Below are positions 1-3,036 of a stretch of 47,827 nt of DNA, piece by piece. Source of the stretch: Acetobacteraceae bacterium (GTDB lineage Bacteria > Pseudomonadota > Alphaproteobacteria > Acetobacterales > Acetobacteraceae); NCBI GenBank assembly GCA_009693795.1, contig SHWN01000002.1, positions 1 to 47,827 of the forward strand. The letters run 5' to 3'. The notes below the pieces were generated by a model, which saw nothing but the letters and a program-made list of their open reading frames with translations, had not been told where the DNA came from and did no database searches. The position numbers were made by a program, and so were the translations under genes. Each line of letters opens with the position of its first letter. Position 1 is the stretch's first letter.

Positions 1-640
1 CATAGCGCGAGGCCAGGGGCGAAGATTTCGTCGCCCCGCCGGACCGACCGGCGCGCTGGTCGGTCCGGCAGAGGTGATGCCGGCAGCATTGGCCGGTGCG
101 TGATCGTGATAGAGCGACTGCGCGACATGCAGGATTTTGTCCCGCGTGACACCTTGCGTGGCACACCTATCGAACAAAAAACGAAAATTGCGCGGATCGG
201 GTTTGTAGGAGCCAATATCCTCAGCCGTGTGGATGGCATCGAAGATGCCGCCAAGACGGCGATTGCTGCCGGCGAAACTCGTGCGGCCCACATTGGAGAG
301 AATGATGAGTTTGAATGTCTTTCCCAGTTCCCCCACCGCGGCGGCCGAACGGTCAGTCGGGAATGGACCCGTCAAACGCGGTGTTTTCCACCGCCGTGCT
401 GGGCACGCCCCATTCCTGGGCCAGTGCAGCATGGACATGGGTGAGGATCTCCGCATAGCGCATGGTCGGGGCCGCAGATTCCTTGGCGCTTTTGGCGCGG
501 GCGAAGTCGGCCGGAGCCCGCTCCGCCGCGATGCCGGCACGCGCCATCAATGGTGCCAAGGTCGCCAGCAGACCGGTCTCCTAGTCGATCAGGGTCCCGT
601 AACAGTCAAATGATAGAAATTTGAAGTCCGTCAGACGCAT
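1..640 (-). pseudogene. Haloacid dehalogenase type II-like (HAD superfamily) pseudogene, runs off the left edge
   Basis: Minus-strand translation from 640: MRLTDFKFLSFDCYGTLID*ETGLLATLAPLMARAGIAAERAPADFARAKSAKESAAPTMRYAEILTHVHAALAQEWGVPSTAVENTAFDGSIPD, then frameshift into SAAAVGELGKTFKLIILSNVGRTSFAGSNRRLGGIFDAIHTAEDIGSYKPDPRNFRFLFDRC...HDHAPANAAGITSA, then a further shift (RAGRSGGATKSS). HAD motifs DCYGTLID, LSNVGR and YKPDPRNF are visible but interrupted. Confidence 0.85.
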
Positions 641-752
641 TCTTGTCTCGTTTTCTGATTTGCCCGGCGAGTGAATATAGGATTAGGCTGACGCCGACAT
701 AACCACATCACTGCCTTATCACCGCCCAATGATCGAAAGAATGGAGGATATC

Positions 753-1932: not shown

Positions 1933-1992
1933 TTGCATCGACGCGATGAGACCCGCAAGCTGGACTCCTCGAAACCAATTGAAAGGAGGTGA
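1933..1992 (+). other. Candidate leader mini-ORF (TTG start) LHRRDETRKLDSSKPIERR*, stop embedded in the extended Shine-Dalgarno of the next mini-ORF
   Basis: Hand translation of ttgcatcgacgcgatgagacc...gaaaggaggtga; codes ERR* through aaaggaggtga. Confidence 0.4.
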
Positions 1993-1996
1993 TCCA

Positions 1997-2083
1997 GTGT
2001 CTCATTGTTTGACGTCGGCATCGGCTGCCACGAGCGTGATTGTGGCGTGGATTTCCATCACCTGTTTGCGGGTGGCGGTGTAG
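1997..2083 (+). CDS. Candidate small protein of 28 aa, (V/M)SHCLTSASAATSVIVAWISITCLRVAV, hydrophobic
   Basis: GTG start 7 nt after ggagg in gaaaggaggtgatccag; followed by palindrome ccggcagcgctgccgg and a strong terminator. Confidence 0.5.
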   Translation: MSHCLTSASAATSVIVAWISITCLRVAV

Positions 2084-2121
2084 TCCGGCCCGCCTCCGGC
2101 AGCGCTGCCGGCCGATAATGC

Positions 2122-2158
2122 GAAAGCCCCGGGGGCATCCCCCGGGGCTTTCTTTATT
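2122..2158. terminator. Strong rho-independent terminator between convergent genes
   Basis: Perfect 14-bp stem gaaagccccggggg / cccccggggctttc with loop cat, followed by tttattt. Confidence 0.9.
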
Positions 2159-2196: not shown

Positions 2197-3036
2197 CTAT
2201 TTCAGCGGGAAGCCGAGGGACCGCAGCCAGCCGACCATTTGATGGCGCCCGCTCAGGCCCGCCAGTTTGGCGGCGCGGCCCATCAGGCGTTCGGTCCAGG
2301 TGCCGGCCGCCATTTCGTTGCGTTTGGAGAATTCCAGCAGCACCGCATCATATTCCTCGCGATTCTTGGTCTCATTGCCGACATTATAGGTGTCGTGGCT
2401 GAGGATGACGGATTGCGGCAGGCGCGGCTTTACTTCCGTTTTCGCTTCCGGCTTGGCGTAGCCAATGCAGTGGCCAAACACGCCCACCACGCCCTGGGGC
2501 AGCTTCAGTAATTCTGCCACGCGTTGCGGGTTGTTGCGCAGCGCGCCGATATAGACATTTGCCAGACCGAGGGATTCCGCCGCGACGGACGCATTTTGCG
2601 CCGCCAGGGCGGCGTCGATCGCGGCGACGAGAAAGGTTTCGAACCAGGGCAGCGCCTCGAACTCTATCTTTACATCGTCGCTGATCCGGCCCAGGCGGGA
2701 GACATCGGCCAGCCAAACCAGGAAGATCGGGCATTCGACGATATGCTGCTGCTTATTGGCGATCTGGGCGATTTCCGCCTTCACCACTGGGTCCCTCACC
2801 ACCATCACCGACCAGGTTTGCAAGTTGGAACTGGTGGCCGCCGATTGCGCCGCTGCGATCAGAGTTTCTAACGTGCCTTCCGGCACCGGATCGGTCAGAA
2901 AGCCACGGGTGGAGCGGTGATCGAGCAGGCAGGCAATCACATCGTTCCACGGACCCGCCGCCGGGATGAAATTTTCACCATAGCGCTGCGCCAGGGCATC
3001 ACGCTTGGTATTGGCCGAGCTGGTATTGGCATCCAC
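2197..3036 (-). CDS. Nitroreductase family protein
   Basis: RSTRGFLTDPVPEGTLETLIAAAQSAATSSNLQTWSVMVVRD N-terminal FMN-binding signature; 279 aa. Confidence 0.88.
   Translation of the reverse strand: MDANTSSANTKRDALAQRYGENFIPAAGPWNDVIACLLDHRSTRGFLTDPVPEGTLETLIAAAQSAATSSNLQTWSVMVVRDPVVKAEIAQIANKQQHIVECPIFLVWLADVSRLGRISDDVKIEFEALPWFETFLVAAIDAALAAQNASVAAESLGLANVYIGALRNNPQRVAELLKLPQGVVGVFGHCIGYAKPEAKTEVKPRLPQSVILSHDTYNVGNETKNREEYDAVLLEFSKRNEMAAGTWTERLMGRAAKLAGLSGRHQMVGWLRSLGFPLK

Follow-up and report, generated by a model that had tools for sequence, protein, structure and literature searches.

The window analysed here, a 47,827-nt stretch of an Acetobacteraceae contig, contains a compact unit flanked on the left by an amidohydrolase-family gene (729-1901) and on the right by a nitroreductase-family gene (2197-3036) that lies convergently on the minus strand. 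What looks like a haloacid dehalogenase-type gene at the left edge of the window (1-650, minus strand) has an in-frame TAG after its FDCYGTLID motif; it seems broken, perhaps as a pseudogene or through an error in the assembly. The original prediction, made from the sequence of the window, had described the unit as a minimal transcription unit. It is judged to be real, with an exceptional Shine-Dalgarno (SD) sequence and a small frame that is very probably translated, and comprises the following features:

1933-1938, plus strand: -35 box TTGCAT of a sigma70-type promoter, at the TTG(A/C) peak of the family, here at -52 from GGAGG
1956-1961, plus strand: -10 box CAAGCT after a 17-nt spacer, at the YANNNT peak of the family, here at -29 from GGAGG
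1973-2151, plus strand: full-length match to RF01867 (CC2171 sRNA), model positions 1-159, 58.1 bits, E 9.7e-12
1981-1997, plus strand: maximal SD, a 17-nt complement to the alphaproteobacterial 16S 3' tail
1987-1996, plus strand: ribosome-binding strand of helix A, AGGTGAT (1987-1993) and GATCCA (1991-1996), corresponding to the family helix GATCCXG/CYGGATC
1997-2083, plus strand: 28-codon GTG frame (MSHCLTSASAATSVIVAWISITCLRVAV) with stop TAG at 2081-2083, conserved boundaries and GC3 periodicity
2003-2009, plus strand: 5' strand of P1, CATTGTT, codons 3-5
2048-2063, plus strand: internal 16S-tail-like strand of helix A within the frame, TGGATT (2048-2053) and ATCACCT (2057-2063), at the position homologous to CTGGATC of relatives
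2096-2111, plus strand: 16-nt palindrome CCGGCAGCGCTGCCGG, belonging to the variable hairpins within P1, not fixed in the family
2114-2120, plus strand: 3' strand of P1 at the terminator base, GATAATG (GACAATG in most relatives), covarying in the family
2122-2158, plus strand: intrinsic terminator read from the window sequence, a 14-bp stem (2122-2135/2139-2152) followed by a T-rich tail

Across 172 non-redundant copies of the family, TTG(A/C) peaks at -54 to -50 and YANNNT at -31 to -29 from GGAGG; a generic promoter scan of the window did not flag the 1933-1961 promoter. Transcription is predicted to begin near 1968 and would yield a transcript of about 190 nt ending at the terminator. From the conserved promoter and the terminator, the unit is predicted to be expressed as a discrete small RNA. 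Both the perfect 14-bp terminator and the 16-bp palindrome claimed beforehand are present. The upstream 19-codon frame that had also been claimed (LHRRDETRKLDSSKPIERR, from TTG 1933 to TGA 1992) exists in the sequence and is not a real gene. Since its TTG start lies in the conserved -35 box, and since the upstream region is identical at only 14 of 48 positions to a same-genus relative, as opposed to 34 of 35 in the SD/start block, this frame was rejected as a mini-ORF and is regarded as accidental.

At the Rfam gathering threshold no match was returned in the window, the cut-off for RF01867 being 75 bits; RF01867 appeared in E-value mode only. Because its score falls below that cut-off, the unit is classed as a divergent homologue and not as a formal member, while by architecture the full-length covariance alignment, the identical conserved 5' block GAAAGGAGGUGAUCCAGUGUCUCAUUG, the P1 stem and the terminator are all present. 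Comparison thus supports the block as a divergent homologue of CC2171, a Caulobacter sRNA, a relationship to a known RNA family that the original prediction overlooked. The copy in the window departs from the Rfam description, in which the structure has no helix masking the ribosome-binding site and the family, filed as an sRNA, is given no reading frame. Four relatives (L123, L147, L109 and L018) score 81.7-88.6 bits against RF01867, above the cut-off. Weak Rfam matches to His_leader, ctRNA and BjrC68 fell mostly in the terminator region and were set aside as chance-like. An sRNA labelled RF01867 has been reported in Mesorhizobium huakuii (PMC5596092); CC2171 is an orphan RNA family, and the literature found on it consists of listings.

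AAAGGAGGTGATCCAGTG, the SD-start block, is present in 18 of 60 relatives, once in each. A longer core, GGAGGTGATCCAGTGTCTCATTG, sought with up to three mismatches, turned up in 89 of 200 genomes from the same family, almost always as a single copy; the reversed controls gave 0 in both searches. The block thus recurs in related genomes, the check that had been proposed for it. A scan of named genomes across Alphaproteobacteria returned at least 120 stretches with the SD-start block, and among the matches listed are Methylobacterium, Bosea, Microvirga, Pseudolabrys, Kaistia, Brevundimonas, Roseomonas-like genera, Acidisoma and others. Relatives of the unit occur in Rhizobiales, Acetobacterales and Caulobacterales. 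RF01867 itself was matched in 61 of 289 genomes of the class, 9 of which exceed the cut-off; Caulobacter vibrioides, the control, was recovered too. One element (L143) sits on a contig assigned to the betaproteobacterial genus Ramlibacter; this contig is probably a misbinned alphaproteobacterial one. Two further sequences (L244 and L245) were rejected for an apparent longer coding stretch and a poor fit to the family. Another two (L225 and L226, near position 1500, minus strand, genomes of one family) carry the extended SD AAAGGAGGTGATCCCGTGTC ahead of a 55-56-codon frame that resembles a small signal-peptide protein; this is a gene type different from the CC2171 unit, and the pair was left out of the family because the SD precedes a lipoprotein-like gene. 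On the best reading of these comparisons, the unit is a free-standing small-RNA gene with its own promoter and terminator, its transcription here being predicted.

The sequence at 1981-1997, GAAAGGAGGTGATCCAG, is an exact 17-nt complement to the alphaproteobacterial 16S 3' tail, as originally claimed, and it recurs in relatives. The reference is the alphaproteobacterial tail, that of the genome itself seeming absent from the assembly: a whole-assembly search of the 2.36-Mb assembly found a single exact copy of AAAGGAGGTGATC, the one in the unit, and the end of the 16S gene is thus apparently lacking in this MAG. The SD is nearly invariant among the 172 non-redundant copies, its duplex with the 16S tail is computed at -32.4 kcal/mol, and GTG 1997 lies 7 nt downstream of GGAGG.

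The 28-codon GTG frame that had been proposed is borne out at 1997-2083. Stops in codons 5-18 occur in 1 of 172 non-redundant copies, compared with 41 in shuffles (minimum 32) and with 80 and 19 in the +1 and +2 frames. The frame closes at codons 19-30 in 164 of 172 copies, against 49 in shuffles and 27 and 43 in the other two frames. Both ranges were fixed, and the test is close to unbiased past the first codons because retrieval was conditioned on the first few codons at most, or on the covariance model. TGA, TAA and TAG each serve as the stop among family copies, and ATG replaces GTG in several clades. Base composition follows the same boundaries: GC3 in the frame is 0.747, compared with 0.646 and 0.637 for GC1 and GC2, and becomes flat (0.655) in the 30 nt past the stop; per copy, the excess amounts to 0.104 +/- 0.009 within the frame and to 0.000 +/- 0.012 beyond it. 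Related copies are counted separately in the frame and GC3 tests, which overstates independence, though the contrasts are large. From these patterns we strongly infer translation of the frame. For Caulobacter, Schrader 2014 (PMC4117421) reports that two ncRNAs known from earlier predictions are translated, in a statement that does not name them, and in S. meliloti one third of newly found translated sORFs sit on annotated sRNAs.

The peptide itself, by comparison, drifts. Over 42 independent close pairs, substitutions are spread over the three codon positions as 141/140/116, the synonymous fraction is 0.32 in frame compared with 0.31 and 0.30 out of frame, and no purifying selection on the peptide is detectable; a conserved peptide is accordingly not supported. 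The window copy and its same-genus relative differ at 9/7/6 sites over the codon positions, and compensated frame shifts are seen within the related copies L071 and L078. Pfam and NCBIfam searches of the peptides gave nothing convincing. The synonymous-site bias sought in the GTG frame as a check on the original prediction is hence absent from these pairs, and the hydrophobic small protein it had envisaged is unsupported as a conserved product. That the start and stop of the frame are kept while the peptide is not suggests that the act of translation outweighs the peptide. Four copies from other clades of the family (L210, L211, L214 and L224) have MSNE, MSSE or MSSD starts and share a SEQP-like end. 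Similar nucleotides, GGAGCAGCCTC and GGGGCAGCCTC, are kept in the 3' part of their frames, and L211 reads them in another frame, which points to selection on RNA rather than on peptide.

Two helices involve the frame. In helix A, GATCCXG, which lies between the SD and the start, has its partner CYGGATC some 40 nt inside the frame, with 90% of alignment cells paired and 10% unpaired. At the X-Y position, 43 of 64 aligned copies have A-U and 13 have G-C; C-G and U-A combinations are also seen in the wider set, and T variants are mostly uncompensated. The duplex between SD and frame is computed at -15.8 kcal/mol, compared with -10.9 for shuffled sequences, and is the stronger in 166 of 171 copies. 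In the window, GATCCA pairs with TGGATT and AGGTGAT with ATCACCT, 1987-1993/2057-2063 forming an exact inverted repeat. In family copies where ACC comes next (CCCGGATCACCG), the internal strand mimics the 16S tail further. Some copies have a weak helix A or none, which counts against the gated model set out below.

P1 pairs CATTG/CATCG, in codons 3-5, with CAATG/CGATG ahead of the terminator. In an alignment restricted to copies that have the complement, 98.7% of its cells are paired; when the partner base is not constrained, T-A is found in 109 copies, C-G in 11 and other combinations in 3, and 17 copies have no recognisable site. The P1 of the window has 7 pairs only, 2 of them G-U, a further point against the gated model. 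Over both helices, 94% of cells are paired, compared with 22-44% in slid controls, and 6 pairs show double changes, compared with 3.3 in shuffles. Since helix A crosses P1, the two would form either a pseudoknot or mutually exclusive pairings. Folds of the window constrained to one or the other helix A register or to P1 reach -87.7, -86.9 and -88.7 kcal/mol, compared with -89.6 unconstrained, the three alternatives lying within 2 kcal/mol of one another. The crossing helices could also make up a stable pseudoknot that does not switch, which again counts against gating. Homology, promoter, frame boundaries, helix A and P1 are each supported by comparison among copies, so that the anatomy of the unit is on firm ground; its function, the switching or pseudoknot and any regulatory output are putative.

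The proposal is that of a free-standing, translation-gated riboregulator that is neither a leader, a 16S remnant nor an ordinary protein gene, and on it we are evenly divided. The internal 16S-tail-like motif would mask the bases from the SD to the start, and P1 would tie codons 3-5 to the terminator base. Binding of the 30S subunit to the SD would compete with helix A, a ribosome travelling 19-30 codons to the stop would open helix A and P1, and the folded state, regulatory or stable, might then report the amount of initiation. The gating reading is preferred because it explains jointly the maximal SD, the self-masking 16S-tail mimic, the strict frame limits and the free peptide.

Several other explanations were weighed. 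One is that of an ordinary tiny mRNA, whose 19-30-aa peptide is the product and whose function resides in loose features such as a Met-Ser-His-Cys start, the length and a small C-terminal residue. It would account for the conserved frame boundaries, the codon-like GC3 and the MSHC/MSHR start of most copies, but third-position and synonymous changes show no excess in close pairs, other clades begin with MSSE, MSNE, MSDE or MSHG, no protein family is matched, and the CAT-TG/CG behind MSHC/MSHR is accounted for by P1 pairing with compensation; this explanation seems somewhat unlikely. Another, a non-coding base-pairing sRNA with an incidental frame, agrees with the Rfam type 'Gene; sRNA' and with the conserved RNA helices, yet is improbable in light of the stop depletion and frame closure (1 and 164, where 41 and 49 were expected), the GC3 periodicity that ends exactly at the stop and the GTG/ATG exchange at the start. 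A sponge for 30S subunits or ribosomes, in which the perfect SD ties up initiating ribosomes and the frame only loads and releases them, draws on the maximal, almost invariant SD complementarity and on its being the sole exact AAAGGAGGTGATC in the assembly. It would need extreme abundance, as one transcript amid very many mRNAs, and the conserved self-masking of the SD is hard to square with constitutive action, which makes it unlikely. The ribosome-sequestering RNA of the original prediction thus keeps a small probability.

The remaining explanations can be given far less weight. A leader peptide or attenuator, also suggested originally, would fit a short frame followed by a terminator, but requires a conserved, co-directional downstream gene. 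None was found: immediate neighbours are not conserved among family copies and form clusters within narrow groups only, the downstream gene lies on the same strand in 11 cases and on the opposite one in 13, as expected at random, and the gene that follows in the window is convergent, making this reading very improbable. In favour of a chance match or a 16S rRNA gene relic is the stretch of 17 nt identical to the antisense of the 16S 3' end. Chance is contradicted by the recurrence of the SD-start block across relatives with a reversed control of 0. No 16S homology was found outside the 17 nt, the identity ending between CCAG and TG with unrelated flanks, and no rRNA match was found in the window, so an antisense 16S gene or relic was excluded. 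With a structured, mostly single-copy unit recurring in many genomes, the probability of either is vanishingly small.

An extension of the translation-gated reading, possible rather than probable, is that CC2171-type RNAs throughout the class need translation and not the peptide, that a ribosome-gated pseudoknot would sense initiation capacity, and that the SD and the 16S-tail mimic are co-selected. With selection on the frame, its start and its stop, a covarying helix within the RNA that masks the ribosome site, and a span over much of Alphaproteobacteria, CC2171 can be put to the test as an RNA that would have to be translated although its peptide may drift. For annotation, the copy in the window lies below the RNA database cut-off and its peptide is missed by protein-family models.

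Related systems offer partial parallels. Sinorhizobium meliloti rnTrpL-peTrpL (PMC10117765, PMC7298713) is likewise a small alphaproteobacterial RNA with a translated mini-ORF, but it is leaderless and derives from the trp attenuator, whereas the unit described here is free-standing, has a maximal SD and lacks an associated operon. The alphaproteobacterial sRNAs RFMSmelA075 and RFMSmelA099 (PMC3927594), which carry CCUCCUCCC loops, share sequence related to SD:anti-SD pairing; they display the anti-SD in loops, whereas the unit in the window displays the SD itself together with an internal 16S-tail-like strand.
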